A DNA stretch of 64,000 nt from assembly GCA_026874595.1 (NCBI GenBank), contig CM049320.1, positions 30,242,714-30,306,713 of the forward strand, in the 5' to 3' direction. The notes below the pieces were generated by a model that saw only the letters and a list, made by a program, of their open reading frames with translations, did not search any database and was not told where the DNA came from. Position numbers and translations under genes: made by a program. This document shows, one piece after another, positions 24,561 through 46,650 of the stretch (the stretch's first letter is position 1; the number at the start of each line of letters is the position of its first letter). This stretch comes from Sipunculus nudus. Taxonomy: Eukaryota > Annelida > Sipuncula > Golfingiida > Sipunculidae.

Positions 24561-26130
24561 GCAGGAACAGTAGAGAAATTAACGCATTTGAGTTTTGGCG
24601 TTTCTTTGAGAATAGATGGCTAGTATGCTTTCATATAGCCAATAGCAGGGAGAGATGGTAGAAATAGTAGCCTGACTCGGTTTCCTGTGTAAGTATGCCT
24701 AACCACAACTACCAATGCATTACTACTCTCGCGGATTTGCTATTATGATATATGTGAAATTAGAACATGAATATTTATTTGCATTTAATTGAATTACTTG
24801 TCTCGCCTCTAAGGAATACGGTTCTCCCAGTCCTTCTTACTGCAAAAGAATTTGATGCATATATGTAACACCGATAGCCGTGTCACCATAAATTCTCTAT
24901 TAAACTTATTTGTATCATTTGAGGGAGGTGATTAAAGCGGTAGAAAAAAACCCCGACTCACTTATTAAGTAACGCAAACTTAAAGAACAGTAGGATTTAA
25001 TACTGAATGAAATTGAATGGTACTATTAATAATATATCTACAACGCTCCTGGCATTTTGACATGAAAAGAACATGATTACAGTTGCAACAAAATGGAATG
25101 AAGAGCATCTCACCTGCAAAACACCACTTCCATTGTATGCAAACTAAATAATTTCCTTGGATTTAACTTACACTAGGTTGCTGTGAAAAAAATATGTCAA
25201 TATTAGTTCTAATACTTGTCAACCCATGCCAAAATATATAGTAATGGTTCAATGAAATGTAAAATGAATGCGGAGTTCTTGCATGATTTCTAAAAATAGA
25301 ATCGAAGATAACAATTCCTTATAAGGACTAAATGAAATATTAATTAGGTTTTACATTCTCGGTACAGCATGTTGTAAGGAACATTGTCTTCACATATCGG
25401 GTCACAGATCATTTTACATGCATACTGTAAGGAAAATATTTTATTATTTTTTATTATATTATTTATCACCTGAAGCAAAGAAAGTACAAAATTTTAATGT
25501 TGTGCTTGCTGAATTTGTTTGTAAACGAAATATCCCAAACTAAACGGACGGACCATACAATACGAGTGTTTATTTCAACAACATCATTAAAAAAATAATA
25601 GGATTCAACTATACTATAGAAAGTACAACTAGTCTGTATTATAAAGAGTCACCACGTTTTCCGTGTGCTGTACTTTTATTTAGGATAAAATGAAGTGCTT
25701 AACAAGAGTAATGTGCTTAACGTGGATAATCACAAATGAGTATTTTTGCTGACATTTTATTATAAATGCATTAAGATAATAAATTATTAATTCGAACAAT
25801 ATCGAGTAATACTTCATTCGTTTATTTATGAGTATACCAAAACATAAAAATTGCGATTCCATACAGAATACTTTGCCAATTTTAGCTTTAGAGCACACTC
25901 TTTGATATAACTTTAATTATATTTATCTTTCTGTTCATATAAGCCTAAAATGAGTGTCCTGGGGAAAAATATTAAGTAAAACTTGAAACTGAATCAAACG
26001 TACGTTATAATTGTTTACAACGGTCAAGAATTTTCACGCGTGACAATGTTCCTCAATTTATAGCAGTTTAGCACACAAAGTAAATCGGAGGTTAATGTTT
26101 ATTAATGTTAACCATTTATGCTGGAAGAAA

Positions 26131-29100
26131 ACCGACTGACTTCGATAAATTACAAACTGTGATTTTAAAACATTCATTGTTGTAGTCTGAAGGCAACAGC
26201 ACTGAGTAACAGCTGCAAATGATCATGTGCGAACAAGTATAGAGTGAATATCACTGATTAAAACAAAAGCAAGATTTCCGTAAATCTGCACATTCAGTAA
26301 ATATATACATTTTCTGTATAACTCTCTATATATAATAAAGCATGGATAAATATAATACCAAATGCAAAGGTCATATATGGGGTTCATGCATGTCGGAATA
26401 AGCGTTATATCAGTAAAAAGAAATATCCTTAATAAAACCTGGGTCATATGACTACCAATGGCCAAATTGGTCTTAATTCATTCGTGGTCTTGTCAGACAG
26501 GACAGTTATAACTACTATGAGCGCTTTCGGTTCACTCAAGGTGGTATTAAAATGCAGCTTTCAGACAGGCCCAAAAGCATGTGAAAAATAATTTGAAAAA
26601 AAAAAAAAACAATAACAGTTGATACTAACTGCTTAGACTCTCCAAAGGTACTGACCTGTCAAGTACAGAAATAACGAATGAATATCATATTACAAAGCTA
26701 ATACCCTGAAAACGATATTTTTAGTCAAGTAAAACAAATAACATCAAAATGTTATCTCAAATATTTAAATATTATTGTTAATGACACAGTCATAGCTCTG
26801 AGGTTTATACTGACAAATCAATGGAAGAACATATTGTTATATTATCTTGATCAGAGGGCCCTGTGCGAAGCACCCTGTCCTGTTAGGTTTGGGATATTCG
26901 TACTTAACATTACAAGACATAATTATTTACATCGACTACCACAGGGATAATGCAAGACAAATATTTACATGTGACGGCTAATCACTATATAGATAAACTT
27001 ACAAATTTAACCACAGCCTATGATAAATGTAATACTAGCCTCCGGCAAACAGCCTAATTTGTCAATAAATGTTATGATACATAAATGTAACAAAGCATGA
27101 ATAAATAATGGACAAAATATAATAGGAACATTCTGTACACATACACATTAGGAGCATCTTGATGCCATTATGTACAACAAACCCATAATGTGAGAAAAAA
27201 ACTAATAGTTTAAGTATAGAGAAGGGTGGATGCTCCGAACCGATTGAACAGACCAGTAAGTTAAAATTAAATATATTAACTGCATAAATACCATAGCTAA
27301 TACACAATCGCCTCTTCGGTAATCTGATAGAGCAAAGAAAACATCGATCACCATTTTAGATTACCAGATAGACATACCTCCCAAGCATAATGCCTTTTTA
27401 TGTTTGAAATTATTATATATATATTGCTAAATAAAACTAACGGATAACACTAACATGACACCTGTCAGTATCTTCAATGTCCATGAGAAATGTTCCCCTC
27501 GAACTTGTTCAAATATAGCCAACATGAATTAGTAAAATACTTCACAATTTACATTTTGAAAGTAACAAGATATGACATCTATACTTGCAGGCCTCACACA
27601 AATCTGCATTTAATTTATATAGACAGATGAATAGATAAATACTTTACCAATTACAATATTTACGTATTTGGTACAGGTTTGTCAGGATGATCTTGATATA
27701 AGTACAAGAAACAAGATGTGGACAGACACTAATACATGTAGTTTTATATTTTCTTTGACAACTAAAAGAGAAATGACTAGAAGCTTATTGACTTAGCTAA
27801 GAGTAATATATAACAGAAAGGTTTGCCTATTTTTTTATAACGCATACGTCCTAATTGAACTGCAGACTTGCACATTTCATCATTTTAAGATAAAACTTTT
27901 TTTTATTTCATACTGTATACAAGTTTATCTTCGGTAAACACATTATAAGTGGTTTGTGCTTATGATCAATGAAAAACAGATAATGTAGTTATGTTGTTTG
28001 GCCATGGTACTTTGACGGCCTGTCCGGGGCTATGACCATATCGATTCCGTGTCAGTCTAGCACCTGTCAGTCTAACACATAAACTGAAAACAATAACAGT
28101 GTTAATGTTTACAATAGGTACTCATTTCGGAATGGGAGGGAGGCAAAGTACCAGTACAAAATATCGTTGAAACGCTTTGATCAAAATGTAAATAAATTGC
28201 TTAGATTTTCAAACGGAGGGATCTGTGAGGTAAAGCAAATCACATGAACCCAGTATCTAAAGTATTTTAAATATCATTTATAATTATTTAGTAACAGTTA
28301 TGAGGTTTATATTGACAAAACAAAGGAGGCATCGTTTATGATATGACCTTGATCAGAAGAACATTTCTTTATGCGATGAACTCTGTTCTGTTTGATTTGG
28401 AACATTCATATTAAATATGCATAATAATTATTTACATCAACCAACACAGTACTCAATCAAGATAAATCTTTTCCTCAAGCATATAAATATATAAGATTTG
28501 ATATATAGCAATTTCATAAACTTACATATCATACTATAATCTATTGATATCTAAAATACTAGCATAATAAGTCAAACTATGTTATAATATAAAATTTGTT
28601 ACCAAGCTTGGATGAATTGTATACACACTATAAAAGCTACATTGTGGGTAACTGCACACCAGTATCATCATGCTGCAACAATGTTCAACAAACCAATACT
28701 GTAAAACAAAAACTAATCGTGTCTTGTTAGAGAAAGTAGGGTATTAGTACAACAAACACGATGTAAAATAAGTGATACAGAGGTGGTCAGCACATAATTA
28801 AGCAAGCTGGTTATGAACATATGTATTGTTTCTAAACAGATATATATTTAGATTTGCATCTGACGCAAGGCTTCACCTAATTTTATCTATATATTTTTTT
28901 TTATTTCCATATACACAGTTCTCATAATATTAAAAAGATTATAGCAGTATGCATGAGGCATTGCTTTACCTTATTTTTTTTTTTTTTTTAATTTTCACAA
29001 TAGCAGGATTTTTTTCTCTTGGTCCCGTTCTTTTGACTTCCGAGTTCAGGTCCATATTGCAAATATAGTGCAGATGTTTTAGGTCCATCTATGGTAGGTA

Positions 29101-29559: not shown

Positions 29560-30138
29560 TCATCTATTTTTGGATCGTATGTCTGTAAGGTTATCAAATG
29601 TACGCCCGAGGACGATTCTTCCAGCACGGTAGTAAAGCTTGTCATCTTCTCGAGTACTGTTCAACATAGTGACTGCCTCTTCAAGAGTCCTCATATCGAA
29701 ATCTCGGTGAAGTGTACACGCGGACATGATACAAGCGGCCGTGTCGTCGCGACAGTTGTAATCTCTCAGACTGTAGTCCCCCTTCCAATCCATCCAAGTA
29801 CTAACAATGGACCGAGCGATATCTTTACCTGCTTGTGTGCGGATATCAATCGTTTGTACCGGCTTGCTAAGGTAATCACAGTTCTTATTGTCAAACTTCT
29901 CTAATGACCTGGCAGCTGCCGCGCAGGTCAGGCACTCGGCAAGACCGGGAAGGCTGGAATCTAAAGGCCGAATGTTAAGGCTAAAACACTTGTTATCAGG
30001 AAACATCAAGACGATCCCTACGTGGCGAGCTGGTTTCTTTTTCAACTTGAATATCATCCAGGAAAACCTATTGTTCTTCCTTATCTGTGCAAATACGTCA
30101 TTTATGGTATATGTGAAGTACTTGCTACTTGATTTCTT
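29560..30138 (-). CDS. Gene A coding exon 3: permuted papain-like (LRAT/H-rev107-like) domain
   Basis: The exon starts after GATCCAG at 30138 and encodes 192 residues plus TGA. At about exon residue 39 is RHVGIVLMF, the position of the first catalytic His (HxxI) of H-rev107/LRAT proteins. About 90 residues later comes YSLRDYNCRDD, matching the Y.L...NC.. nucleophile motif in spacing and context; the preceding helix (ARSIVSTWMDW) fits too. The second His of the family is replaced by Asn in FSLNIRP, and the usual Glu-His after Cys is Arg-Asp. A conserved CLTCAAAARSLE segment lies between. Catalytic activity is therefore plausible but unproven. The fold could also be another His-first papain-like group such as PPPDE. 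Confidence 0.7.
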   Translation of the reverse strand, partial: KKSSSKYFTYTINDVFAQIRKNNRFSWMIFKLKKKPARHVGIVLMFPDNKCFSLNIRPLDSSLPGLAECLTCAAAARSLEKFDNKNCDYLSKPVQTIDIRTQAGKDIARSIVSTWMDWKGDYSLRDYNCRDDTAACIMSACTLHRDFDMRTLEEAVTMLNSTREDDKLYYRAGRIVLGRTFDNLTDIRSKNR

Positions 30139-30187
30139 CTGGATCTGGAAAATGTAAAATACAATATTACACTTGATAAAAATATAC

Positions 30188-30239
<52 letters not shown>

Positions 30240-32044
30240 CAACAGTAAGCTCTATAGAAAGGGGGAGGGCTTGTATTTATTTGATCGGTTCATGGTGGAA
30301 GTTTCCTTCTGGAATAATTTTTGTTGTACAAGATTATACAGAAAATCGGAGCAAACAATACCGATGATTTAATAAGATTGATTATCATGTTACATTATTA
30401 CTTTCATTCACCATAATGCTTTATAAATTGCAATCCAGTGTTGAGGTTCAGAAAGTATAGAGCTCTTTATAAATTCAGAGTAGATTTATCTTATCGGCCT
30501 TCGTCCATTGTGAAACTTTGTAGCTTAACACCTGGACAAGAGTTCCATGGATCAAGATTAAGATAACAGAATTAGACTTACATGTTCTTGTGCCTTGGCA
30601 AGTTACATTTGACTTGATATGCGTTCTTATATATTAACTAAATTTCTAACTAACGCAATATGTATTAAAGTCAATTAAAACATAAGGAAACATTTCAGAT
30701 TTTGCATTATATCCCCGAAATAAGTCTAGTATATTATCGATTATATCATATATATATTATATATATATATATTATATATCTCACTACATAATGATACTTG
30801 TTAGACATTTTAATGCGAATTACTTTTAGCTCTCTCGCGATCGATGTGATATCTAATAAGTTCATTCTTGAACGATATACCTGCTTTCGGTCTTCTGTCT
30901 TGGGTTTTCTAATATTTGATGAGGTTTGTTTGACGCCTCTTTTTGTTGCATTTATATCTCTCCGCATTTGCTCACGGGTAACCTATAAAGTTGAAAAAAA
31001 CTGTTTATCATGCATGTCTTATTCTTAATTGAAAAACGGTAAAACTCCACTTAAAAAGCTAGCACAATAAGTATCAATTCCTTCATAACATGTTCATCAT
31101 CCTTCCATTTTATAGCTGATTTTATTATTTATGTCTATGAATATCATAGCATTTAATTTTTTGTGGGGTGCAATATTTCCAAAGAAGGCATATTTAATTA
31201 CTGGACATGATCGAGAACAGGTATAATATAATTAACAAACATGCAAGTTCTAGAAGGGTAATGCTAATGCGATCAACATGTTTCTTACCCTGAGATCTTG
31301 GATTATATCGTAACTTCCGCCGTTCAAGGTGACACACAATAGCAGTTCATATATCTCTTCAAACCCACGCCATAAACTTAGGGCAATATCATGTATTTTG
31401 TCACCCGTTGACGATGTACTGTTATCAGCGAGTCTTTTTACGCTAGCTCCCAGGTCATACAGTGTAAATGGCAATGTTATAGCAGATATAATGCGTCCAC
31501 CAATTTTTCCGGCTGCTCTTCCTCCGATGCTTAATACATTTTTGCCGACTCTTCCAACTGTTGTGTTTATCAAATTACCAAAATCATCCAAGATCCTGTC
31601 GGCTTTCGAATTTAAATTCAAATTTAAGTACGTGTACAGCAGTTTTTCTGCGACACAAGCAGGAACTGAATGTCTGTGGAAATCTAAAATATCTACTATC
31701 ATGATATTTATCTTTGTTAGGTCTTGAAAATCCTCCTCCAATATGGTTTTCACTTGTGTAGCCTTCTTCGCCTCGATACCTGCTTTTGTTATGTCTGACC
31801 CTCCTGTAACAACGCCACCAACCGCATTAACAATAAAACCTACTATCATTGCTGGAAGGAAAGGGATGCGAGAAACGACTGAACCTACTGTGGACACGGC
31901 AGCTCCGGTGGTTTTGGCAATATTCACGTTTTTTCTATGTTTGTCTGTGTCCTCTGCTATCTCAATTAATTGTCTGATTCGTTTTTCTCTCTTGATGAGG
32001 AAACTCCTTATATGTGTCTGTAATGTATCCAGGCGGGCCATCAT
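29560..32044 (-). CDS. Gene A: ApoL-like / LRAT-H-rev107-like fusion protein (3 coding exons)
   Basis: Predicted coding exons are 32044-31289, 30982-30881 and 30138-29560, all joined in phase 0 with GT-AG introns, giving 252 + 34 + 192 = 478 aa. The first exon encodes an apolipoprotein-L-like helical, membrane-associating domain. The second is a basic linker. The third is a permuted papain-like domain resembling the LRAT/H-rev107 phospholipase-acyltransferase group. Gene B (43721-46650) repeats this structure exactly, including the 102-nt middle exon, so the joints are not chance. A 5' UTR exon may end at 33387 (CCAGTG before GTAAGA). ApoL proteins insert into membranes and H-rev107 enzymes act on glycerophospholipids, so an intracellular membrane-targeting lipid enzyme, perhaps in defence, is my inference. 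No signal peptide is seen. Confidence 0.75.
30191..30236. repeat. (TA)n microsatellite in gene A intron 2
   Basis: Uninterrupted alternating TA just upstream (minus sense) of the last exon's acceptor. A second impure TA tract lies at about 30745-30778 in the same intron. Confidence 0.9.
30881..30982 (-). CDS. Gene A coding exon 2: 34-codon basic linker
   Basis: An acceptor (CTTTATAG) and donor (CAG before GTATATCG) bound exactly 102 nt, phase 0 at both ends. The peptide is Lys/Arg-rich (ATKRGVKQTSSNIRKPK). Gene B has an exon of identical length and phase at the equivalent place, with matching A.KRG.K..S positions. It probably acts as a flexible, positively charged linker between the membrane domain and the enzyme-like domain. 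Confidence 0.7.
31289..32044 (-). CDS. Gene A coding exon 1: ApoL-like domain
   Basis: The exon opens after an acceptor (GCTTCAG, first exon base 32080). An in-frame stop lies just upstream of the tandem ATG-ATG at 32044, so this is the likely start. Residues 1-35 are basic and helical. Residues about 35-90 follow the ApoL pattern: DTDKHRKNVNIAKTTGAAVS, then two Gly/Val/Ile-rich hydrophobic stretches (about 48-60 and 64-81) that could form a hairpin across a membrane. A second hydrophobic helix sits near GGRIISAITLPFTLYDLG, followed by SVKRLADNSTSS and a closing amphipathic helix, the classic ApoL C-terminal layout. The exon ends at ..QDLR before GTAAGAAAC. Confidence 0.8.
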
Positions 32045-32532
32045 GTAAACTGAGGTTTAATCCCTGGGTGACCAATAATTCTGAAGCAAAAACAAAACAG
32101 ATTTTCATTCTCACAACATGATTAGCAAATGCATAATCGTGCACATTTGGCATACACTTAAGGGGCTTATTAGGATATCAGACGTGTATCGTCTACAAAT
32201 ATTCCCTAGAACGCCTGCATACTATATATCCACGTAATTCTGTCCCACATGCGGCGTATTTTCCTTTGTTCTAACTGTACGTTCAAATGTGCTTGCATCA
32301 CTGGGACATGACAAGTGACCATGCAAGTGAAGTTGCATGGAGACTTTCCAAATATGGCATAGAACTGGTGCGTAGCCAAAAAAATGACACGCCTTAACGG
32401 CTCGCCCGCCATGTGACACAAGCCTCGCAAACCTCACGGCTTGCATTGCATTTCATTGGGCTATAACCAATACATAACACTAGAGGCCGCCAAAAATATC
32501 AAAACATTTAAAAAGGACATCTGCTGGAAAGT

Positions 32533-32533
<1 letters not shown>

Positions 32534-32593
<60 letters not shown>
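32534..32593. repeat. (TA)n microsatellite
   Basis: About 60 bp of alternating TA. Confidence 0.9.
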
Positions 32594-32595
<2 letters not shown>

Positions 32596-33075
32596 ACACA
32601 TGGACACATAGGAGATAAGTACTAAAAGGTCCTTGCATTACAACGTTGTGATTACAAATCCGTTTAGCAACGTTGATTTCTTAGGCTAATATACGATTAC
32701 ATGAAGTGTGCCAATCCTTTAATCACTCAGAAAACTGAACGATAAAACTATGATTTATCTATAGGCATATCAGTATGTCCTTATCTCTGTTAACATATAC
32801 CATTGTGAGACCGAGTACTCGGAGAGCAACCGTATATAAATATAGGCTCACAAACATGATCAAAATGGGAGTAATAGGAGGGACGAAAAAAAACGACACC
32901 GATGTGCCGTATGGACATATACGATTTTCAGAAATGTGAGAGAAAATTGGAAAGATTTATATAAATCTAAGACAAACTGTGCACCATGATAAATATTCCC
33001 CTCATGCAAAGATTTCCGTTCAATGTCTAAGTAAAAGGGCATGTTCGATTATATTTGTATCAATTACAGAACTGA

Positions 33076-33110
<35 letters not shown>
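33076..33110. repeat. (AAT)n microsatellite
   Basis: About eleven perfect trinucleotide units. Confidence 0.9.
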
Positions 33111-33111
<1 letters not shown>

Positions 33112-36100
33112 GGTCATAATAGCAGCACATGTAGTAGTATAAATGGAAATAATTATACGATTATTAAAAAAACAATGTCTTTAATAAACGATGCAGTAAT
33201 ATAAATGATAAAATAACATTTTATCTGTAGCTGTAGGAAATCTAAGTTCTAATCAGGAACGGTGGTATCCATTAATTCCTTATCACAACCTAAATTATTA
33301 GGAGTTTCAAACAGTACTTACCTTTATCCTTTAAGGAAACTGCAAAGAAACACAATGTTGTCAAACATATGCCACGCAAATCTTACCACTGGCCATTGGT
33401 TAGCTCTTTTGTGAGTAGTATGTAGAAGGCCTGAATTTTCTCTCTGACAAGGTGCTAATAAAGATCTCGTGACATTGGTCGACAACATACGCCATTAAGC
33501 TCAACGTATCAAGTAGAAGGGTACATGCGCAGCAGAATAACTTCCGGTCTGATGAACTTTGCTCGGATCGTGATTACAGATCGATTATGATATGATATAC
33601 AAACCTTCATGCGCCAGGAAGTAAAAGTCATTGTTTTATTGTGTATACGGCTATGGAATCGTAGGATATGTATCCTATGTTAACAAATAAGATTTACCGA
33701 CGAGGCCCAAACTAGTGAACGGCTGGTTTATTTTAAAGTTAGTGTGCTTTGGCCGGCCGAGCCTGAAGGTGTACAGCCTGCAGATTCCCTAAATCTGAGC
33801 CATGGAGAGTGACACCATTAGTTATAGTTACTATTTGTACAATCCATATAAAATAAATAAGTTTTTGTGTATTTCTTACTTTTAAATATACGACGGCCCC
33901 AAATAGAAACCTGTTTTGTTCAGACGCCGGGATAAAGGAAGGTCTGAAAAAATAAATGCCAGAGCGTATTATCAAGGAAATACGGTATATACAAAAAACG
34001 GTATAACACGATGGTATCACGGTAATATCAATATGTTTAACTCGTTTTGGCTGAACAGATTATATATAACAGAACATGGCATGAACTAACTCCGTGCAGT
34101 CTTTTAAAAAAGCCCTGAGAATCGGTTATTCAGTATGTGGACATATCTGTGTCGTGAAAGTGGTTGTAAACATAACATTTCTTGAATCTACATAACGCCT
34201 GTCACCTGGAGATTTGTTACCCCGTGCTGCGCCTGACTGTTGCTGTAAAAAGTCATTTGCCTATCGTATTGTAAACAAACTTCCTTTTGCTATGTGAGAA
34301 ACAGCTAACTGTGAGTGGAATGTATTTTTAGCTCATAGCATACATATAAGCAGGAAGACACTTATGGTATGTGTAATCATAGTGTTGTTGGAAGGCCGAG
34401 CGATCGCCAGGCATGATACATGATTAACAAAGAAACCATATTCGCCTTTAGCTTTCAAAAGAAATGCAATTATCCAAACAATCCACGCACATAACATTAT
34501 TGTGTATCTTTCTAAGGTCACCCCTACCTTATTTTGTAAAAGTTACATGAATGAGCCCAGTGTCCCATTGGTGGACACAATGCATAGTAAAGTAGCGTAT
34601 GGTATTGTTTACTTTATATGGTTCCTTATTCATTCATTGAACAACAAGGCTATCTCATAAATGTAGGTCTATATTCTGCCAGGTCTATATTCTGCGATTG
34701 TAATACCAAATCCATTTTAGTTCTGGAATCTTACTTTTTCCATTATCCAGAAAGAGTAACCGCCATTTTGATTGTTACGTTTGTATTTTGATTGTAAATA
34801 CCTCGATATAAGAAAGGCACTACCCTTCCCGTGACAGCCAGTCTGTAGTTTGAGGGCTAAGACCGCTGGTTTTGCAGAAACTATCTGGTATTATTCAAAC
34901 GCCTGGCACAATAAAGTTATAACCACTATCTGAGTGAGCACATATCATCAAGGGTGATACTGATCAGTTACTGATAAAAAACAAGGGACCCATGGGTCAC
35001 GGCGCTCAGCTGTTATATATGATAAAAAATATGATTTGGGAAAGAGGTACATGCTTGTTTTGTGTGGTAATGAATATAAGCTTTATTATGAGTTGTTGGT
35101 GTTTAGCTTATGTATGATTTTGATAGTATCTTTGGAGATAGGGAAGACGATTGATTTCATTTATTTTTTTAACAAATGGAGTGTTACTGTCACACGGATT
35201 TTGACTTGGCCATATAACTTATAAGCAGCACATATAATAAAAGAGTAACTATTTATTAAAATTTAATAACAAATATTGTGCCAATATAATTTTTATTTAA
35301 AAAAAAGAAGAAAAACATATGATTTTTTAAAAATAAAATATAACTGAAATGATTATTGAAATAATATTATAGAATATATTCATGAATGCATTCATGAATA
35401 CATTTTGAAAGTATCTGCACTGGTATTCAAATACTTTCATTTTTACCTGAATTCTCATTCTTATGCAATAATTTTTATTAATGCAGTACTTATTAATATT
35501 CGTATTCAAATACATTTGCAAAGCATTCGCACCACGTCTAGTATTTTTTTCAGTTTTAGCCAAACAATGATGTTGAGAACCCAGAATATAAAAAAATCAC
35601 AAATTTAAATATTGATCATAAGTACCTGGTTTTATGGCTTTTATTTATGTTAAAAAAAAATAAATGTTATATGTTCACTTTTGACTACTTTCACATCAAT
35701 CTACACACTAGTCACAGTAGGAATCTAGATTAATATTATCAGCTGCATCTTTGTCTATCATTAATTTCCTTCATATGATCCCTAATGATTAGTAATGAAT
35801 AATATGATTTATTTTTTTATCATTAAAATTTTACTGAAAAACACCATAGGTGACTACATGGTGTTATTTGGAATAACATTGACATTGACAATCTATCCAT
35901 CCATACAAGATTCTTACATCATCAGTAACTGCAAGTTAATTTCCTGTTACTCATCAACTAACAAATTCCTTTTCTATAAATTTTTCTTTAATTTGTTATA
36001 AAAAAAAAATACAAAATTATTAATTTATTGTTTGTTGTTATGTTGTTTTTCAAAACAACTTCTAGATAAGTTGGGTTGGACACCTGGATCAACTGTGGCT

Positions 36101-37436
36101 GGGCATTAGCTGCCTGGCTGCCCCAGTGTATGCTTCGCTCAAGCATGCATAATCTGATGAGAGGTCAACAAGGTCAACATACAGGTGACTGAAGAGGGGC
36201 TGGATTAAGCCTGGGTCTGACAAGGTCTCATATAACATTAATAAAGCTACAATATTTGGCCAATTTCTTTCAGCTTTCTAAACTACAAAGATGAAATCTT
36301 TATGTGTGCATAATATGAAAATTAAATCAACAGTGCTCTCAGGAAACAAACGTGCCATGGTCAAAGTTGGGCAAAATTTAAGGTACTAATTTTATATTTA
36401 TACTAATAACTTATAAAATTAAAAAAATTCAGAACTAATTTTTGGTATTCAATTCAATCTTGATTAAATAATGTTACATCCCAGACAAAGAATCTCTAGC
36501 TTCAGCAATCCTCTTGTTAAGGGAGTAAATATATTTCTTGATTTTTTAAAAAGTGCATTATGTTTGGGCCCATAACTTAAAACAATTACGCAATACTGAC
36601 ATCATTTCTGGCATGTGCATAGCAAATGTATAGAAAAATATGTATATTATATATGATCAAAGTCAGATCAGTAGTTTTGATATTAGGCAGTCTTACAGTG
36701 AAACAATGGGTTTCATTAATATTTCGAAGGAATTAAGTCCTAGTGATCAAATTCTTGGCATGGTAGGGGATTTTAGAGACATCTAACTGTATGCTAAATT
36801 CAAGGAACTTAGAGCTGAAGCTGGGGAGCTGAGCTCTAGCAAACTGCATAACACTAGCTTGATGTAAACTTGATGTGACATTGTGCTTGAAAACTTGAAT
36901 AAAATCTACAGTTTTTGATCAAATGGTTTCAAATTTTTGGCTTTAACAGACAAAATGCTAACAAACACATGCTGTGAAATTAAATCCACATTACTTACAG
37001 GAAAAAACGTGCCATGGTCAAACTTTAGCAAAATTTAAGGTACCAATTTTATATTTTTGCCAATATTTAAAAGTATTTAACAGATTTTGATCTAATTTTT
37101 GGTATACAATTAAATTTTGATCAATTAAAGTTGTATTACTGAAAAAAAGTCTCTACCTTTAACACTTTTGGTCTTAAGTGACCAAATATCTTTCCTGATG
37201 TTTTTACAAAGTCCATTATGTTTGGGCCCATAACTTTTTTAAATTAAATAATACTGACTTAATTTCTGGCATGTACATAGGAACTATATAGAGGAATATT
37301 TTTGGCAAATATGAAGAAAACCATATGAATATGAGTTTATTTATTATAGTGTCATGTACAATAATACATGAAAAATATAATAAATGTCTGCTTATAGTAC
37401 CCAACCCTCGCAGGGGTTTATATGACACTCAATTCT

Positions 37437-40400
37437 CTAGTCGATAATGGTGGTACAGGCGTACAAACAGTTCTTTCTTATCTCCCATGCTTTGGCTACA
37501 AAGTCACTGATTTCTTTAACACAGTTTTGAAGCAGGTATATAAATTGACTTTTAGGAGATAATCCTAACAACTCAGTTTCACTGTTATGAATAGATTTGT
37601 AAAGTTTCTCTCTTATTTCCTCATATTTTGGACATGAGCATATGAAATGGATTTCATCTTCAATTGAATTGTCCTCACACATGGTGCATATTCTTTCCTC
37701 GGGTTTTAATTTTCTAAATTTACCTGTGATTGCGTCTCGAATATTTTTAAACCTCCCAACTTCAATTTCTAACGGTAAGATTCCACATCTAAGCTGTGCC
37801 ATTAAGGATCTCTTTTCTCGCGTTAAATAACGAGTGACATAAGGTTCAGTAGAGAATGAAGGTTTTAGTAATGCGTATGTTCTTAGTTTTGGCTTTAATT
37901 TTATTTCTTCTAGCCACTTAGATTCGTAGAATTCTCGTAATTTTTTGCCAACATTTTCAATAGGACATACTAACCCCTGAGCAACAATATGCGATACATT
38001 CGCAATATCTAGAATTTCTTCTACTTTAGCTGACCAGTTGTTATATCTTAACTCCCGGTCCCAGTTGAAAATTTGTTTTACAAGCCTTCCTTCGTCCATT
38101 AATATGAGCTTATTCCAAAATTTAAGTATTTTCATCTGGCGCCTTTCTAAACTGGGGATCCACCCCATATCCCCAGTTAAACCTAGGATGGGACATAATT
38201 TATGAACTCCTAGAAAATACCTTATAGCCTTGTTCTGAACTTTATCAACGGTCGGGGATTTACAGTGACCCCATACCTCACAAGCATAATCAAGCACTGG
38301 TACTACGGCACTGTGATAAAGTTTAGTATAAGAATGATAAGAAACATTTTTGAAGTATTTAAATTTTGAAATTATATTCCCAAGTGCTCTTGAACCAGCG
38401 TCTGATAAAACATCACTTCCGGTTTTATACTCCATATGCTCCGAAAGATAAAATCCTAAATATTTATACTCCTTGACAATTTTTAAATTAAACTCGTTTA
38501 AATTAAATTTGGACGGAGTAAGCGATTTTTTACGATCACGGAAATGGATAACATTACTTTTAATCGGATTCGGATGTAGCTGCCATAACTTACACCACGA
38601 GTCTAAGTACGAGAGCATACATTGTAGGGCACTAGCAGTCGGTGCCACTAGAGCGATGTCATCAGCGTACAGTAATATACTAATTTTAGTAAAGCCACAA
38701 GTAATCCCCATGTTGAGCGAATTGATAACTCGTACCAACTCATTCAGATAAATATTAAATATTGTAGGTGATAGGGGATCACCCTGGCGTACACCAGAAC
38801 AGACCGTAAATTCATCAGTGAGCAGATCCGGATTAATTCTTACCTGTGCTTTGTTATTCTCATACATAGACTTCAATGCATAATATAGTTTACCATCAAT
38901 ATTTAACTCTAGCAACCGGTAAAGGAGAAGGTCTCTATTTATTTTGTCAAAGGCCTTTTCCATGTCGATTAGGGCTACAAATACCTCTTTGCCCATATTA
39001 ATGTAATTGGTCACAATACTTGTAAGATTAAAAATATGTTCAACACATGACCGACCCCTTCGAAACCCATTTTGCTCTTCAGCTATTAATCCCAAAGAAT
39101 CACAATACGAGGATATTCGCCTTTCAATTAATGCGCTGTAAACTTTCCCTACACAAGATAACAATGAAATACCTCTGTAACTCAGAGGCTCATGAGGATC
39201 CTTCCCTTTTTTCAAGATAGGGGCAATAAGTGATTTATTCCAGCAGGTAGGCACCGTACCTTTGTTAAAGCAAAGAGTAAATAGTCTATACATCATTAAC
39301 ATGACAGTGTGACTTCTTAGAACCTCGTTTGGTATAAAATCAATTCCAACACTTTTCCTATTTTTTAGGTGCTTAACGATGGATTCTATTTCATGAAAAG
39401 AAATCTCACAGTTTAGCATAATATTACTTTCATAGTGAGGGAGCTTCATTTTATTTTCTTCGCTTAAAATAATATATTTTATGTTTTCATGAAACCGTTT
39501 ATCCAAATCCGATACCTCTGTCTGTTGGTATAATTTTAAGAATTCTTTTCCCCAATAGTTCCTTACAGTCGTCAAATCATACAATAAAACACCATTATTT
39601 CTGACCGACAGTGGTATCCTTGACCTTTTTTGGGAACCCAAACGATTGACCAATCGCCAAAATTGTTTTTGATTTGTTTTTGCCACATTCTCAATATCAG
39701 CCAACTTTTTTCTGCGGTAAATTCTTTCTTTACACCTTAACATTTTATCGAAACAACGCCTGGCCCGAGTAAATTCTTGTCTTAGTACAATATTATGTAA
39801 CCCTTTCCTTACATGATTCTTCAAATTATGTTCTTTGTTCCGCATATTAATCCAGGCCTCTTCCAGTTTATCGTCCCAATACGACTTTATACTTATTTTT
39901 CGTTTACTGGGCCTGCACATGTTCCGTGCCCTATTCTGTTTGGAGGGCAATCGGTCGTGTATTTCTTCATATATGATGCTACAAAATTGTCTGTAACACA
40001 GGTCTATTTCAACATTTTCATAAGGGCCACGATTATTTTCAAAGAAAGCCTGAGCTTTGTTGACAAAAAGTTCATTATATAAAATACTTTTTGGGATGTC
40101 GTTGAAATTGATACATTTTTTTAAAGTAGGAAGAGGGCAGTTCGGTGCCTCAGGCTGCATTAAACGATACATTTTCGTGCTAGTGTCAGAAGAAACAATA
40201 AAATCAGTGTTGTGTGTTAATCTGACTGAAACAATGAGAATCGCATGATCTGGTACTTTACAATGTCCCTCGATCATACTTTGCAGTTTAAACTCATCAA
40301 TGACGTCAATACCATGACGTATCCTGAAACCAGTACATTTTTCGAGGGTATCATGACCAGTTATTATAAAATCAACGACTGATTTTCCCCTACCGGTGAC

Positions 40401-41036
40401 TGAGGTGAAATCATTCATGTGTCTGTCTATTCTACCATTAAGTACACAAAGCATATTTTCTTTAAGGAATTCAATCAGGCTTTCACCATGAAGATTACGA
40501 GTTTCATCTAAAATTTCTCTGGGTTCTAAATTTTCTATCTCAGGAATAGTGTCTTGTAGTTTACCTAAACGAGCATTAAAATCACCAAGTATAAAGACAT
40601 GGTCAACATCAGAACAAGAGTAAACTGCCTGTGTCAAATGAGCGAAAAAAGAATCACTATCCCTGCCCCACGGTGACTGTTCAGGTGGAAGATAACAAAC
40701 ATAAACAACAATATGACAGTCTGTGAATCTATGTACTAACTGTATCCCTAATATACCGTCTTTGGTCCTGTCAACAATCTGAATATTAAATGTTACATGT
40801 AGATCTCGTCGAACAAATATACCAACCCCACCTGACCCTTTTTTCGCGTTTACATGGAGCATATTTCGATTGTGGCCATACCAAACATAATTATCAAGCT
40901 CAATAGTATCGTTATTTTTTAAATGAGTTTCACAAATACATATAATGTCAATGCTTAATTTCAGCAGAATTTTGCTCCTTAATTTTGCATTGTTCGTAGT
41001 CCATCCGTTCACATTCCAAACACACAAAGCGAGCAA
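37437..41036 (-). CDS. LINE ORF2: endonuclease-reverse transcriptase
   Basis: 1199 residues with no interruption. N-terminal apurinic-like endonuclease: WNVNGW near the start, ICETHL, then LGDFNARLG and VVDFIITGHD, PDHAI. The reverse transcriptase lies in the middle: SYRGISLLSCVGKV, QNGFRRGRSC, LIDMEKAFDKINRD, SGVRQGDPLSP and the catalytic YADD at about residue 790. Near the C-terminus a CTMC..EIHF.CSC motif resembles the zinc-binding knuckle of many LINE ORF2s. No RNase H domain was recognised. The first codon of this frame segment is TTG; the first ATG comes only at about residue 59, after catalytic endonuclease residues. The frame is open upstream to the ORF1 stop, so translation probably begins in ORF1 and reads through. 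Confidence 0.9.
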   Translation of the reverse strand: MLALCVWNVNGWTTNNAKLRSKILLKLSIDIICICETHLKNNDTIELDNYVWYGHNRNMLHVNAKKGSGGVGIFVRRDLHVTFNIQIVDRTKDGILGIQLVHRFTDCHIVVYVCYLPPEQSPWGRDSDSFFAHLTQAVYSCSDVDHVFILGDFNARLGKLQDTIPEIENLEPREILDETRNLHGESLIEFLKENMLCVLNGRIDRHMNDFTSVTGRGKSVVDFIITGHDTLEKCTGFRIRHGIDVIDEFKLQSMIEGHCKVPDHAILIVSVRLTHNTDFIVSSDTSTKMYRLMQPEAPNCPLPTLKKCINFNDIPKSILYNELFVNKAQAFFENNRGPYENVEIDLCYRQFCSIIYEEIHDRLPSKQNRARNMCRPSKRKISIKSYWDDKLEEAWINMRNKEHNLKNHVRKGLHNIVLRQEFTRARRCFDKMLRCKERIYRRKKLADIENVAKTNQKQFWRLVNRLGSQKRSRIPLSVRNNGVLLYDLTTVRNYWGKEFLKLYQQTEVSDLDKRFHENIKYIILSEENKMKLPHYESNIMLNCEISFHEIESIVKHLKNRKSVGIDFIPNEVLRSHTVMLMMYRLFTLCFNKGTVPTCWNKSLIAPILKKGKDPHEPLSYRGISLLSCVGKVYSALIERRISSYCDSLGLIAEEQNGFRRGRSCVEHIFNLTSIVTNYINMGKEVFVALIDMEKAFDKINRDLLLYRLLELNIDGKLYYALKSMYENNKAQVRINPDLLTDEFTVCSGVRQGDPLSPTIFNIYLNELVRVINSLNMGITCGFTKISILLYADDIALVAPTASALQCMLSYLDSWCKLWQLHPNPIKSNVIHFRDRKKSLTPSKFNLNEFNLKIVKEYKYLGFYLSEHMEYKTGSDVLSDAGSRALGNIISKFKYFKNVSYHSYTKLYHSAVVPVLDYACEVWGHCKSPTVDKVQNKAIRYFLGVHKLCPILGLTGDMGWIPSLERRQMKILKFWNKLILMDEGRLVKQIFNWDRELRYNNWSAKVEEILDIANVSHIVAQGLVCPIENVGKKLREFYESKWLEEIKLKPKLRTYALLKPSFSTEPYVTRYLTREKRSLMAQLRCGILPLEIEVGRFKNIRDAITGKFRKLKPEERICTMCEDNSIEDEIHFICSCPKYEEIREKLYKSIHNSETELLGLSPKSQFIYLLQNCVKEISDFVAKAWEIRKNCLYACTTIID

Positions 41037-41069
41037 ATCGGCCTGGTCACACGAGAGTTGGGTATTCCC

Positions 41070-41072
41070 CTA
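41070..41072 (-). promoter_or_regulatory. Candidate readthrough UAG between LINE ORF1 and ORF2
   Basis: Following this TAG the same frame reads eleven sense codons (GNTQLSCDQAD) straight into the endonuclease domain. No AUG is available for ORF2 before its catalytic motifs. The UAG-G context and the absence of any overlap or frameshift favour stop-codon readthrough; termination followed by non-AUG reinitiation is the alternative. Confidence 0.55.
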
Positions 41073-42176
41073 ATGGGTGTGTACAGGGATCGTGGCACAG
41101 CTGGGCACAAACACCTGAGGGGTAGTTGCCGCTTGGAGGTTTGTCGGTGCGGGGGTGGTCAGGTGGGATCCACTGACCAGCGGAGGGCCCTGGGCTATTG
41201 TAAGTCCGGTAGTTACTAAGGTATGCGGTGGCGGTAACGAAGGGATATTGACTCCGGCAGGGTGAGTGTGCATCACGGCACTCTGATCCGAGGGCGCGAA
41301 TGCTTTCATACTGGGCATCCCTTGAGAGCCAGCTGTAGACATCTGGCCTTGCGACCGTACTGGGGCTCTTTGTAATATTTGCTTGTCTATTGTTGTGTGA
41401 TAATCATCTGTTCCCCGATAGTGTGAACTACTAGTGTGAACCAGCTTACCGTTGCCGGTTATTCTGTACTGGCCACCATTTGGAAGTTCGCTCAGAATAG
41501 TTCTAAAGTTGAGCTGGATTAGCCGTTCGGCATGCGTCTGGGAGGACTTCAGGAACACACGTTTATAAAGACCAGAGTTTTCGAGATTCTGTTTATTGCG
41601 CAGTACTTTTATTTTGTCACCTTCACTTGCTAGCTCAATTTTGAGTAAACCCGGTCTTCCATTTCTAGCGCCGAGTCTAAGTGCCCTAACCACAGGTATA
41701 TCATCTAGACCAACACCTTCCTGAATAATTCTTTCTGCAAGCTTTTTAGGGTCTTCATTATCATTTTGCACCACTCTAATAGCTACCACAGTGACATCAG
41801 GATCAAACGGCTTGTTTCCCATCTTGTGCGCGGATTTTTCTATCACGGACATTCTGTTATCTAAGTCATCGATTCTCCTTGTCAGGATACCGATTTCGAT
41901 GTCTATACGATTGTTCAACTCGGCGAATTTTGAATCAATTATTTGCGTAATATCTAGGCGTATTCTTTCAACTGACTCACTAAGACAAACTTTGAAATCT
42001 TCCTTCAGTGATTTTATCTCACCTTTTAGATTTCTTATCTCAGAAAGCAAAGTGTTACCAGTCACTTCACTGATTTCCTCCATGTTTATCTTGCCCTGTT
42101 TAGGATTCGGGTGGATAGTACCGTCAGAGTCTGAAGAACTTGTTCTAGTCCTTTTAGTGCTTGATTCCAGGTTCAT
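41070..42176 (-). CDS. LINE ORF1: coiled-coil RNA-binding protein
   Basis: 368 residues starting at ATG 42176. Residues about 1-30 are Ser/Thr/Lys-rich, and about 35-115 are a heptad-like Leu/Ile coiled coil (ISEVTGNTLLSEIRNLKGEI onward). About 125-240 resemble the RRM plus C-terminal nucleic-acid-binding domains of L1-type ORF1 proteins (VTVVAIRVVQNDNED, VVRALRLGARNGRPGLLKIE, YKRVFLKSSQTHAERL). The last ~120 residues are a Pro/Thr/Ser-rich tail. It would coat the LINE RNA as a trimer-like particle. The ORF ends in TAG-GGG, in the same frame as ORF2. Confidence 0.85.
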   Translation of the reverse strand: MNLESSTKRTRTSSSDSDGTIHPNPKQGKINMEEISEVTGNTLLSEIRNLKGEIKSLKEDFKVCLSESVERIRLDITQIIDSKFAELNNRIDIEIGILTRRIDDLDNRMSVIEKSAHKMGNKPFDPDVTVVAIRVVQNDNEDPKKLAERIIQEGVGLDDIPVVRALRLGARNGRPGLLKIELASEGDKIKVLRNKQNLENSGLYKRVFLKSSQTHAERLIQLNFRTILSELPNGGQYRITGNGKLVHTSSSHYRGTDDYHTTIDKQILQRAPVRSQGQMSTAGSQGMPSMKAFAPSDQSAVMHTHPAGVNIPSLPPPHTLVTTGLTIAQGPPLVSGSHLTTPAPTNLQAATTPQVFVPSCATIPVHTH

Positions 42177-42631
42177 TTCATAACATCATGTAGGAACCAG
42201 CGAATATAAAAAGGAACCTAAATTTGTTCAATTGTGAAACAAGCTGGTGTAAAAGTTAATAACAACAACCGGCCGGCATAGTGTGCCACTCTTGAGAAAC
42301 ACGTCTGCACGCCTCGACGACCCATTAACAGTATGAGTGGTTTTGATATTAGGCAGTCCTGAAGTGTGAAAATAGATTTCTAATAAAAAATTCAGGTTTT
42401 TCCTTAATATCTCAATGGAACGAAGTCCTATTGACCCAAGTTTCGGCATGGTAGGAGATTTTGGGGACATCTAACTGTATGGCGAATTTCAGATTCGTAG
42501 GTCCAATGGTGTCGAAACGTGCCAGTCTTAAGGACGGACATCCGCACAGACGGACGGACGGACGGACGGACGACGGACAATGGGCCACGACTATAGCTCA
42601 GATGACTTATAGTCAGCTAAGCTAAAAACAC

Positions 42632-43720
42632 TGAACATTTAATCTTTCTTAATTTGCCTGTAATCTTTTTTTATTAAAATAAAAAGGTCAATTAGTCAGG
42701 TTACAACACAAGATACCACATGCAGTAAAGGTCAGAATATTCCACATAAAATTGCAAAGTAGATACTCCAACTGCGTATATAATTTTAACTTTATGCGGA
42801 GTTCATCTGACCTTGCAAATCTGCACTACCGATATTGTATGAAGAATACATTGCTGGTGCAAACCATTATTACATATGGTTTAATAAGGTTATACCTGTG
42901 AGGCGTTTTATCGTCCATTCGGCTAAAAGAAACAACTGGTCTGATAGTATCGTACACAAATGAAGAAAATTGAAGAAAAAATGTTAAGGTTGTTAAAGTA
43001 AACCCATTTTACATTTCTTCTTCCTTTGAAACGCTTAATTTTCAACATTATTGAAAATTATTTCAATTTATTTATAAATTTATGTCGGAAAATGTATGGG
43101 CCAAAACGATGGTCAGGCCCAAGAAGACCTATCTATAGTATTTGAATTCCACTTGGTTCATTTTGCTTGTAGCTGCTTATAAAACTATTAGGTTTACATT
43201 TGGTTTGTCTAGCTATGTGTTTTAACCTGCTTTACTAGCACCATACCCGTCGGCATCGTCATGATTTTCAAAAATAAGGAAGACCTAAACTTTTAATGTA
43301 TCCACTAATAAGGAAAAGGTAAAAAACATGGCAACTTACTCTCACAATTATGCATTGATTTGATTATAAAAACAGTCCCAATTAATCAATAATGTTTCCA
43401 TTAAATTAATACGTTAAATGATCACAAACTTAAAAAATAAAACTAAAATAAATGTCATTTCTGTAGTTTTATACATAGGAGAATATAAATATTGATTAAA
43501 AGTCACATTGTCACTGTTCTTTCATCATTTATATAGTCCAATGATTCAATGGTGTAACACAAAGCAGTATTTCTTGTGTATGTACGCCACACGTAAAATG
43601 CATTTTTTCTTTAATTTTGACATTCTTGTAAGCTCCACTTTAAGAGTTCAAGTCCAAAAGAACACGAAAAAATCTGAGGCATAACTGAGTCGGACATGCC
43701 CTGTGCACCATATATTTTCC
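42632..43720. other. Region between the Helentron-like element and gene B, no gene seen
   Basis: AT-rich sequence forming the 3' flank of gene B. No open frame or repeat of note. Confidence 0.4.
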
Positions 43721-44290
43721 TTAACCTATATCAGTGATGTTATCAATTAGACGGCCGAGGAAAATTCTACCCATACGGTAGTAATGTCTGTCATCTTCAC
43801 GCGTATTATTTACAATGTTAATGGCCGTTTGTAGGGCTGCCATGTTGAAGTGTCTGTGAATTCTACACGCCGACATGATGCAATCTGCTGTGTCATCACG
43901 GCAGTTGTAATCTCTCAGACTATAGTTTCCCGCCCAATCCATCCAGATATTTATAATGGACCGGGCTACATATTCGCCATCTGGTGTGCTAATATCTATC
44001 GTCTGAATCGGCTCGCTTTGGAGTCCCTGATTCTCCACCAATTTTACGTCCTCTAATGACCTGGCCGCTGCTGCACAGGTCAGACACTTTGCTAGTCCGA
44101 CATTGCTGTAATCAATTGGCCGAATATTAAGACTGAAACTCTCTTGTCCATCGAACATCAAAACAATACCCACGTGCCGGAAGGGGGCCTTGTCCAACTT
44201 GAATATCGCCCAGGAAAAAGTAGAACTGCTCCCAATCTTGGCATACACGTCCGCCTTCTTATATTTGAAGTATTCATGAGTGGGTTGTTT
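43721..44290 (-). CDS. Gene B exon 3: permuted papain-like (LRAT/H-rev107-like) domain
   Basis: Starts after TTTCAG at 44290 with 189 residues plus TAA. All key positions of gene A are conserved: FRHVGIVLMF, FSLNIRP (Asn again in place of the family's second His), CLTCAAAARSLE, and YSLRDYNCRDDTADCIMSAC about 90 residues after the His. The retention of the His, Cys and surrounding segments while linker residues vary indicates selection on this domain. The ~60 residues after the motif (NMAALQTAINIVNNTREDD to the end) are also alike in A and B and may be a lid or targeting segment. Confidence 0.75.
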   Translation of the reverse strand, partial: KQPTHEYFKYKKADVYAKIGSSSTFSWAIFKLDKAPFRHVGIVLMFDGQESFSLNIRPIDYSNVGLAKCLTCAAAARSLEDVKLVENQGLQSEPIQTIDISTPDGEYVARSIINIWMDWAGNYSLRDYNCRDDTADCIMSACRIHRHFNMAALQTAINIVNNTREDDRHYYRMGRIFLGRLIDNITDIG

Positions 44291-46650
44291 CTGAAATTCG
44301 GAAAACATGTGTCAGGCTTCATCCGAATAAGTGGATTTTTTTATATCAAATTTCAGATCAATTTGACAGAAGCGATCCTGATATAACGGGACTGTTATTG
44401 AAGACCCTGACAGACCACATATTGTCTACTTATGCTTGGAGCTAAGGAAACTAATAAGAGCATTCGGAGTACAATTGTTTTTAATTATATTTGAGTTCAC
44501 TTACGAAATTGCTTCCTGCAGGATTTCCCAATTTCAAGTATGCTTAAGTAAAGCTTCACATACCGGTAACGTTATGTCCGTTACCAAACCTGAATATTTA
44601 TCTTTGTGACCGATGTGTAGATTTATCCATTATGCGTTACTCCGCCATATTGCGTCACTGGGAACCGGGTGGACCTAATTGACAGGACCGGGCTAAAGGG
44701 CAGGACCGGGTCACTGGGTGCATCTCGCGTGAAATAAAAATGGCTAGTAAGGGAACTGTAGTTGAGGGAGTAGCATAAATAGTAAGCTTTTTTTATAGAA
44801 AAGGTCTGGTTGTTATTGAAAACTTAAGTAGAGAGCCAGAGGTCGGCCGACAGTGAGACAGATTTTCGTGGCCACAGCACCGGCCGGTGGCACCATGCAC
44901 CTGGTGGTGTCAACGTGGACTGCATAATAACTCGAAATCGAGGTACAGATGGTAGCATTTTCTTGCTAATAATAAATAGAGCGGGAGACTAGCGATCAGG
45001 AACTGAAACAGGAATGACAGGAATATTGGTCTGTATATGAGCAGTATGTGGATATATTAAATATAACAAAAAGGGAAAATTAATGTGTCGGTGTAACCTA
45101 TATAGATCAACCTATGTAAAGATTCACTGACATGCTATCTAAGGTCAAAATGATGATTTAATCGTTACTCCTATCTATGAAAGACCCTTGTGTCTGATAT
45201 TGAGAATGGTTTACCGTAGACGCGAATTTGATCGAAAGAAGTCACAAAACATAATTACTAAACCCAGATAATTAAAATAGTTTTAAAAAAAATCTCTACC
45301 GAAATCTAAAATTAGGTCGCTGACCTTTATTTTATGAGCCAAATCAGCTGAGCAGAGCTACTTGTTCATTGCTGGTTACAAGCTTCAAACTGTTGCTTTA
45401 CAGAAGTAAACTTTTTTCCAGTTTATTACGCTTATTAAATAATTGACTTTTGAACTTAAAATAATCTTCCTTCGACTTTTGACTGTCGTCGGTTTAAACA
45501 ATTAACAGTTCCAGTTCCGTTTCTCATATTTTCAAAGCGACACGCAATATACGGGTTATAAACGGAAACAAAGAACTCAAACTTGCATTACCTTAATTTG
45601 CCTTTTCATCTTACATTGTTTTATATATGAAGGGCTTTTCCAACCCCTTTTCGCTCTTGCAGCTTCCATCAGCATCTTAAGATGGCCACGCAACTAAAAG
45701 GAGAAATATATGTAGTGTAAGCTGGTTAATAGTCAATTTTACATCACAAATACTAGTTTAAATGGTAAAAATTTTGAAATAGTATTCCATTAGAACAAAA
45801 TGATACTTTAAAGCTAATTATAGTCTGTGTACTTACCGTAGCATCATCATTAGCTCTGCCGTTAATGTTGATGATACTGAGCAGTTCATGTATTTCTTCG
45901 AACCCATCCCAGTAATTTACTGCTATACTATAAATTCTGTCTCCAGCTGAGGAGGTGCTGTTATCTCCAAGTCTTTTCGCGCTGGCTCCTAAATCATATA
46001 ATGTCAACGGTAAAGTTATCCCAGAGATCACGCGTCCTGCCACTTTTCCTGCAGCCTTACCACCGAGTATCAATCCGCTGTCTGCCAGTGATCCTACGTT
46101 TTTGAAAGTGTTTCTACCGATTTTTCCTATCGAAGTGTTGATTAAATTCCCAAAATCATCCAAACTTCTGTCTGCTTTAGAATTCAAATTCAGGACCAAA
46201 TATGTATAAATCAGCTTCTTTGCAAAATCATCTAAAATTGGTGAAGACGTATTGTTGGCCAAAATGAAAAGTTCTGATAACTTTGTATTCAGTTTATGGC
46301 TCTGTAAAATGTCCTTCTCCAACATGTGTTTCACACGTTTACTCTTCGTCGTTTCAATGCCTACTTTTGTCAAGTCTGCCCCGCTTATGACGATGCCACC
46401 AACAACATCAAGAACAATACCTGCGATCGTAACCGGAGGAAAGGGAATGCATGTCAAGACGAATCCAACTGTGGAAACGGTCGCTCCGGTGGTCTTTGCA
46501 ATATTAACGTTTTTTCTATGCATATCTGTGTCTTCTGCCATCTCCAACAGTTGTCTTATTAAATTATCTCTCTCCGGGAGCCATTAGACTCTCAAGGTTT
46601 CTAAGGTTCCTTTGGCAAACGCGTGACCTATCGATGCTCAATCGCAAGTC
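43721..46650 (-). CDS. Gene B: paralogous ApoL-like / LRAT-H-rev107-like fusion gene, possible frame break
   Basis: Exons are 46650 (or start codon 46547)-45837, 45693-45592 and 44290-43721, joined in phase 0 like gene A. Without the first 34 codons the product is 237 + 34 + 189 = 460 aa. It has the same orientation as gene A, so this is a tandem duplicate now separated by transposons. Upstream of the first in-frame ATG (46547) the homology continues (RDNLIRQLL matches gene A), so the real start lies further 5'. A good acceptor (ACTTCAG) at 46650 opens a frame of 28 codons that meets TAA two bases out of register within a GAGAGAGA run. The copy may be a young pseudogene, have a sequencing error, or use another start. 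Confidence 0.7.
45592..45693 (-). CDS. Gene B exon 2: 34-codon basic linker
   Basis: Bounded by an acceptor (CCTTTTAG) and a donor (AAG before GTAATGC), exactly 102 nt in phase 0. The peptide (AARAKRGWKSPSYIKQCKMK and flanks) keeps the KRG.K..S spacing of gene A's linker despite low identity elsewhere. Same length and phase in both paralogues is the main evidence that the exon is real. Confidence 0.7.
45837..46650 (-). CDS. Gene B exon 1: ApoL-like domain
   Basis: From MAEDTDMHRKNVNIAKTTGA onward this exon matches gene A's ApoL exon closely, including the Gly/Val-rich hydrophobic hairpin, DKVGIE-like basic turn, NLNSKADRSLDDFGNLINTS, GGKAAGKVAGRVISG and TLPLTLYDLGASAKRLGDN segments. The last residues are ..NDDAT before GTAAGTAC. 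Gene B has an extra ~8 residues (FKNVGSLADSGL region) relative to gene A. The 5' part (46650-46567) reads DLRLSIDRSRVCQRNLRNLE and is out of frame with the rest by a 2-base deficit. Confidence 0.75.

Follow-up and report, generated by a model that had tools for sequence, protein, structure and literature searches.

Apolipoprotein L (ApoL) proteins insert into membranes and serve in immunity and in organelle dynamics, and we know of no APOL protein with an enzyme domain. Here we analysed a 64,000-nucleotide stretch of the Sipunculus nudus genome (GCA_026874595.1, contig CM049320.1, positions 30,242,714 to 30,306,713), hereafter the window, in which two genes, A and B, are predicted to join an ApoL-related domain to a second domain. 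This second domain may work like the enzymes of the LRAT/PLAAT family without necessarily belonging to that family.

Several described systems come close to these genes. A hydrophobic hairpin flanked by SNARE-like helices is named in a review as the major characteristic of APOLs (PMC11726835). Human ApoL1 and ApoL2, and probably ApoL3 and ApoL4, carry a four-helix N-terminal domain ahead of the hairpin (PMC8316464), which is a trait of the human ApoL1-4 group and not of the whole ApoL family. PLAAT enzymes cleave phospholipids at membranes, and a PLAAT moved to mitochondria deforms them in an activity-dependent manner (PMC9338259). In permuted enzymes of this kind the four catalytic residues are Cys, His, a polar residue and Tyr; PPPDE1 has its Tyr seven residues before the Cys, and LRAT has a second Cys at +7 (PMC3142127). 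In the permuted NlpC/P60 superfamily the first strand carries a GD motif; some of the permuted relatives are deSUMOylases and others lipid enzymes, and those of the PPPDE type act on proteins (PMC10318531). No description of an apolipoprotein L and LRAT pairing was found in the literature searched, which mostly left subscription journals outside its coverage, in line with the original prediction, made from the sequence alone, which knew of no description of the pairing.

The two genes lie on the minus strand, A at 29560-32044 and B at 43721-46583, and are composed of the following exons:

31289-32044, minus strand: gene A exon 1, 756 nucleotides from the ATG, 252 amino acids, ApoL-like helical domain, phase-0 donor GTAAGA
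30881-30982, minus strand: gene A exon 2, 102 nucleotides, basic linker with 11 K/R among 34 residues
29560-30144, minus strand: gene A exon 3, 585 nucleotides with the stop, 194 amino acids, candidate permuted papain-like domain
45837-46583, minus strand: gene B exon 1, 747 nucleotides without a start codon, ApoL-like domain, 5′ end damaged
45592-45693, minus strand: gene B exon 2, 102 nucleotides, basic linker with 11 K/R among 34 residues
43721-44290, minus strand: gene B exon 3, 570 nucleotides with the stop, 189 amino acids, candidate permuted papain-like domain

The results confirmed that both genes follow one exon plan, as had been proposed: an ApoL-like exon, a linker exon of exactly 102 nucleotides and a third exon, all in phase 0, with every exon length a multiple of three and all four introns running from GT to AG. 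We conclude that A and B encode three-exon genes with a predicted joining of exon 1 to exon 2 to exon 3, which for A gives a predicted protein of 480 amino acids. The A and B proteins were identical at 260 of 479 aligned columns (54%; expectation value (E) 5e-180). The ratio of non-synonymous to synonymous substitution (dN/dS) between them was about 0.25 in exon 1, 0.55 in exon 2 and 0.20 in exon 3, indicating that both long exons are constrained, and the synonymous divergence (dS) exceeded 1, which makes the duplication old. When internal-exon candidates were sought at a stricter threshold, the intron of B contained the 102-nucleotide one only, and that of A contained two, of 102 and 159 nucleotides, with the same acceptor and a tied score. 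Conservation of the linker sequence was considered and rejected: the exon-2 peptides of A and B were barely conserved (24% identity), and their alignment score was equalled by 590 of 5000 shuffles locally and by 183 of 5000 globally. In addition, the first Met of A exon 3 is residue 30 of that exon, downstream of the conserved D16, so that exon 3 would hardly be able to start a protein of its own.

The 5′ end of gene B was found to be altered:

46584-46586, minus strand: TAA in frame at the 5′ boundary of exon 1 of gene B, facing A residue 14 when the two are aligned without gaps

B also has no ATG opposite the start codon of A, and its frame is otherwise open for 472 codons. As a second paralogue, B thus keeps the exon plan and a long open frame but is not plainly intact; it may start further in, use another first exon or be a dying gene.

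To characterize exon 3 we drew on a search of the animal's own genome (1.43 Gb in 153 contigs), in which seven of the 12 candidates scored were matches, namely A, B and five further copies (L021-L025). In the alignment of the seven copies (A4), whose pairwise identities ranged from 29 to 91% with L021 and L022 91% alike, 23 of 156 ungapped columns were invariant. Thirteen positions of interest had been picked from the A and B sequences when the paralogues were not yet known; seven of these were invariant (D16, H41, G43, N57, Y124, N130 and C131) and six varied (V17, R40, I44, V45, L126 and C138). Among the seven Cys, two His and three Tyr of A that stand in ungapped columns, only C131, H41 and Y124 were invariant. 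The candidate active-site codons are:

30022-30024, minus strand: codon of H41 (exon-3 numbering) of gene A, predicted general base
29974-29976, minus strand: N57 codon, unchanged in all seven copies and a candidate for the third catalytic residue
29773-29775, minus strand: Y124 codon, seven positions ahead of the Cys and a candidate for the fourth catalytic residue
29752-29754, minus strand: C131 codon, the predicted nucleophile within the NC motif
44174-44176, minus strand: H codon of gene B exon 3
43901-43903, minus strand: C codon of gene B exon 3

Both RHVGIV and YSLRDYNC, which had been reported as lying about 90 residues apart, were recovered, with 90 residues from H to C in A and 91 in B. 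The order of the permuted NlpC/P60 superfamily, His, polar residue, Tyr and Cys, is reproduced by H41, N57, Y124 and C131, which would form the active site and are invariant in all seven copies. The Tyr stands at C-7, and the Cys at +7 is kept in six of the seven copies. At the site of the GD motif, D16 is invariant, and the residue before it is N, A, E, K or D, never G. Taken together, we judge it probable that exon 3 encodes a divergent permuted papain-like domain of the NlpC/P60 type. The suggestion of a His-first, NC-motif permuted papain fold was borne out in its motif order and in the invariance of its residues, but profile support was weak and the structure models were unusable.

When compared with the LRAT/PLAAT family (PF04970), exon 3 shares the leading His, a Cys near the C-terminus, the Y-x6-C spacing, an N before the Cys and the Cys at +7; its 90 residues from H to C equal those of PLAAT3 (H23, C113), and in both cases a catalytic domain, here a predicted one, is coupled to a hydrophobic membrane part. 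It differs in having NCRxD rather than NCEHF, an Asn at +16 rather than a His at +12 and a D16-to-H41 interval longer by about 14 residues, and the membrane part is N-terminal and ApoL-like here, whereas it is a C-terminal tail in LRAT/PLAAT. The YaeF/YiiX group (Peptidase_C92) has the same permuted order and resembles exon 3 in its front half, with 24 residues from D to H in YiiX against 25 here and the third residue at +15 (E64) against +16 (N57), while the rear half of exon 3 is spaced like LRAT; YiiX has its Tyr 13 residues before the Cys instead of seven and lacks the NC motif, and exon 3 has no match to PF05708. PPPDE/DeSI proteins (PF05903) likewise share the permuted order and the Tyr seven residues before the Cys, but exon 3 has no PF05903 match, and H and C are 70 residues apart in PPPDE1 as against 90.

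The surroundings of the five additional copies were examined in stretches of 9.9 kb. L021 lies on the same contig as A and B, at 53.6 Mb and 23 Mb away, and its exon 3 is 43-46% identical to the window copies. Upstream of this exon 3, and on its strand, lies an exon-1 homologue (25% identity, E 4.5e-9) that ends in a phase-0 donor, and exon 3 of L021 is preceded by a phase-0 acceptor; a 102-nucleotide exon was looked for at L021 and was not found. The pairing of an ApoL-like exon with exon 3 hence recurs once outside the window, indicating that it is a trait of the family. The exon 3 of L022 is a near copy of that of L021 (91% identity). In L023 (contig C7, 1458-8406), exon 3 and an ApoL-like gene are on opposite strands with their 5′ sides facing, about 5.7 kb apart. 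In L025 (8495-9160) a Gly-rich hydrophobic tail follows the exon-3 domain at its C-terminal side, with a Gly-zipper match at E 0.0022 that was below the cut-off, and L024 has a shorter hydrophobic tail. By eye, bacterial plasmid-borne LRAT proteins (L001-L003) carry a long hydrophobic tail after the enzyme, as L025 does after its exon-3 domain. As a separate observation, a plasmid of Acinetobacter towneri encodes one of these tailed LRAT-family proteins (L002, 489-1396) beside an annotated viperin-family antiviral protein.

The kinship of exon 1 with ApoL (PF05461: APOL1-6, ApoLD1) became visible through the paralogue on contig C7. This exon-1 homologue (L023:7705-8406) passed PF05461 with E 6.1e-9 and 36.2 bits against a cut-off of 25.9, covering profile positions 68-296 of 298, and the alignment of A exon 1 to this homologue spans 19-239 of the 252 residues of A (E 3e-23). 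Exon 1 of A, B and L021 had no PF05461 match up to E 10. The homology holds at one remove, since it is the C7 homologue and not A or B that passes the profile, and exon 1 is supported through this paralogue as a divergent ApoL relative. The earlier description of the exon as ApoL-like was accordingly upheld by way of the homologue, but not by A and B themselves. One feature of A resembles the ApoL hairpin:

31787-31903, minus strand: hydrophobic stretch in the gene A protein (residues 48-86), by hydropathy a candidate membrane hairpin

It is the sole stretch of the 480-residue protein above the hydropathy cut-off of 1.2. In a low-confidence model of exon 1, helices 2-46 and 82-122 flank it and the stretch between them is left unmodelled, consistent with a hydrophobic hairpin between long helices; that it crosses a membrane is a prediction. 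Exon 1 differs from described ApoL proteins in that only 47 residues precede the hydrophobic stretch of A, which leaves no room for a four-helix N-terminal domain of the ApoL1 and ApoL2 kind, and in that an enzyme-like domain follows in A and B. Matches of AI-2E transporter, DUF3226, DUF3037 and chemoreceptor type were discarded as below the cut-off or at chance level, and PHROGs and NCBIfam gave weak unrelated matches only for exon 1.

From these data we propose, with about an even chance of being right, that A encodes, and B at least until recently encoded, a two-part membrane enzyme made of an ApoL-like domain and a permuted papain-like domain. In this protein, exon 1 would supply a long helix, a hydrophobic hairpin, a second long helix and then a second, Gly-rich segment, inserting into the membrane or lying on it, and exon 2 would serve as a basic linker between the ApoL part and the thiol enzyme, which would thereby be kept at the membrane surface. 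In the predicted active site C131 would be the nucleophile and H41 the base; N57 would orient H41, and Y124 would stand on the oxyanion side. Such an enzyme would act on membrane lipids broadly in the manner of PLAAT, by cleaving or transferring an acyl group. More tentatively, and with the balance somewhat against it, these genes may form an undescribed effector family in which an ApoL-type domain delivers a new type of Cys-His-Asn permuted papain-like enzyme to membranes to rewrite their lipids. The same enzyme domain, occurring also with Gly-rich hydrophobic tails and at one locus with a divergently transcribed ApoL gene, would then belong to a modular set of tools by which membranes are attacked or remodelled. 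The ApoL membrane part could act in the manner of APOL3-type lysis of intracellular bacteria (PMC13177371); the links of ApoL to defence in that source concern mammals, and a defence role for the sipunculan genes is offered only as a lead.

Several results weigh against the proposed lipid enzyme. An ApoL-like exon lies upstream on the same strand in only three of the seven copies (A, B and L021); none was detected in about 8 kb each around L022, L024 and L025, the latter two on contig C13, and that of L023 lies on the opposite strand. For exon 3 there was no significant match in Pfam, NCBIfam, PHROG or PDB sequences, the best E values of 0.1-0.7 being at chance level; among them were weak Lnb_N matches over the Cys region in L024 (E 0.21) and L025 (E 0.10), a family that we take to be papain-like. 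Profile comparison by hhalign with an alignment of four LRAT sequences (A3) gave a probability of 0.07% from the two window copies and of 3% (E 0.014) from the seven-copy alignment, in which six of the seven rows remained after the program's filter, and comparison with 12 LRAT sequences gave E 0.019, the probability being 2-3% over the two seven-copy comparisons. In this last comparison one of 60 column shuffles matched the observed score, which the reversed alignment did not reach. For a two-block LRAT score, 31 of 2000 shuffles equalled A and 5 of 2000 equalled B. The decoys for this score were 101 Escherichia coli open reading frames, one of which, identified by its identical score as the true relative YaeF, was left out; four of the remaining 100 scored above A and one above B. 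The genuine permuted enzyme YiiX reached only 0.6. The two-block test is therefore neither specific nor sensitive. Finally, the structure model of exon 3 had a mean confidence (pLDDT) of 35.5 and its structural matches were noise; its order of strands and helices fits a papain-like fold, but without usable confidence.

The narrower assignment of exon 3 to LRAT/H-rev107 did not hold. PF04970 gave no match at E <= 10 to exon 3 of A, B, L021, L023, L024 or L025, the control PLAAT3 matching it at 9.6e-46. All seven copies have NCRxD, and all four LRAT rows of the A3 alignment have NCEHF. At +12, the place of the second His, there is a Cys in A and a Ser in B, the invariant N57 sitting at +16; LRAT itself may not need the second His (PMC3142127). 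Exon 3 as LRAT proper was rejected on these three grounds.

Three other explanations were considered. The likeliest of them, which we hold to be unlikely, is that exon 3 is a lineage-specific domain other than a papain-like one, such as a binding module, in which H, N, Y and C play a structural part. The lack of a significant database match, the hhalign probability of 2-3%, the unusable model and decoys scoring similarly speak for it, whereas the invariant residues among Cys, His and Tyr are exactly those at the predicted catalytic positions, and the best profile alignment fell on the Y-NC-C motif in register in three of three comparisons. Ranking just after it, and equally hard to favour, is the same fold with another substrate, in which the product would be a membrane-tethered cysteine protease or isopeptidase of the PPPDE/DeSI kind and the ApoL part would only position it. 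N57 would then complete a papain-like Cys-His-Asn triad. A Cys at +7, as in LRAT and in six of the seven copies, argues the other way, there being to our knowledge no such Cys in PPPDE, and so does the hydrophobic tail of L025 with its parallel in bacterial LRAT proteins. The His-first order and the Tyr at C-7 are equally traits of PPPDE1 (PMC3142127), and deSUMOylases as well as lipid enzymes are found among the permuted relatives (PMC10318531). Because PPPDE-type relatives act on proteins, the substrate cannot be read from the motif alone. That the ApoL-like exon and exon 3 are two separate genes side by side is highly improbable: the two parts can exist apart, as the adjoining genes of L023 on opposite strands indicate, and the exon joining in A and B is predicted from sequence, but A, B and L021 have phase-0 donors and acceptors, both window genes have the 102-nucleotide exon, A exon 3 has no Met before residue 30, and the homology between A and B ends near the splice sites.

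If the two-part lipid enzyme is real, the fusion would suggest an activity with which ApoL membranes can be partnered, and it would offer a single polypeptide whose membrane insertion could be uncoupled from its lipid editing by point mutation. Exon 3 would also represent a new branch of permuted papain-like domains, one missed by the profile libraries applied in this analysis.

Outside this genome, none of the candidates that were scored out of 5.8 billion proteins was a homologue at E <= 1, and none was confirmed in viral contigs or in bacterial and archaeal genomes. A phage search made with exon 3 only gave no homologues, and neither PHROGs nor NCBIfam matched this exon. Exons 1 and 3 had chance-level matches or none among PDB sequences, and a PDB sequence search with the seven-copy alignment found nothing. 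In our judgement the collections searched hold few animal proteins, so absence from them is no sign of rarity in animals.

The rest of the window contains further traces of exon 3 and a mobile element:

15148-15331, plus strand, opposite to A and B: decayed exon-3 relic with a broken frame (nhmmer E 3e-15)
17741-17795, plus strand: possible second exon-3 relic around the His motif, weak (nhmmer E 0.012)
37437-42185, minus strand: retroelement of the long interspersed nuclear element (LINE) type between A and B and part of neither gene (RVT_1 8.9e-35, Exo_endo_phos 3.5e-12)

The LINE consists of two adjoining open reading frames, ORF1 at 41070-42185 (371 amino acids between stops) and ORF2 at 37437-41069 (1210 amino acids), with endonuclease and reverse transcriptase domains. 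The region 16200-28700, which also includes the possible second relic, holds several duplicated blocks of 300-600 bases with 66-80% identity, among them the pairs 16545-17017 with 19168-19640 and 18067-18646 with 25554-26139. At 21863-23290 on the plus strand there are two adjacent open frames of 219 and 187 amino acids with no Pfam match at the cut-off, possibly a mobile element. In addition, self-comparison revealed a tandem array at 49645-51394 with a period of about 180 bases, the copies of which are roughly 81-89% identical.

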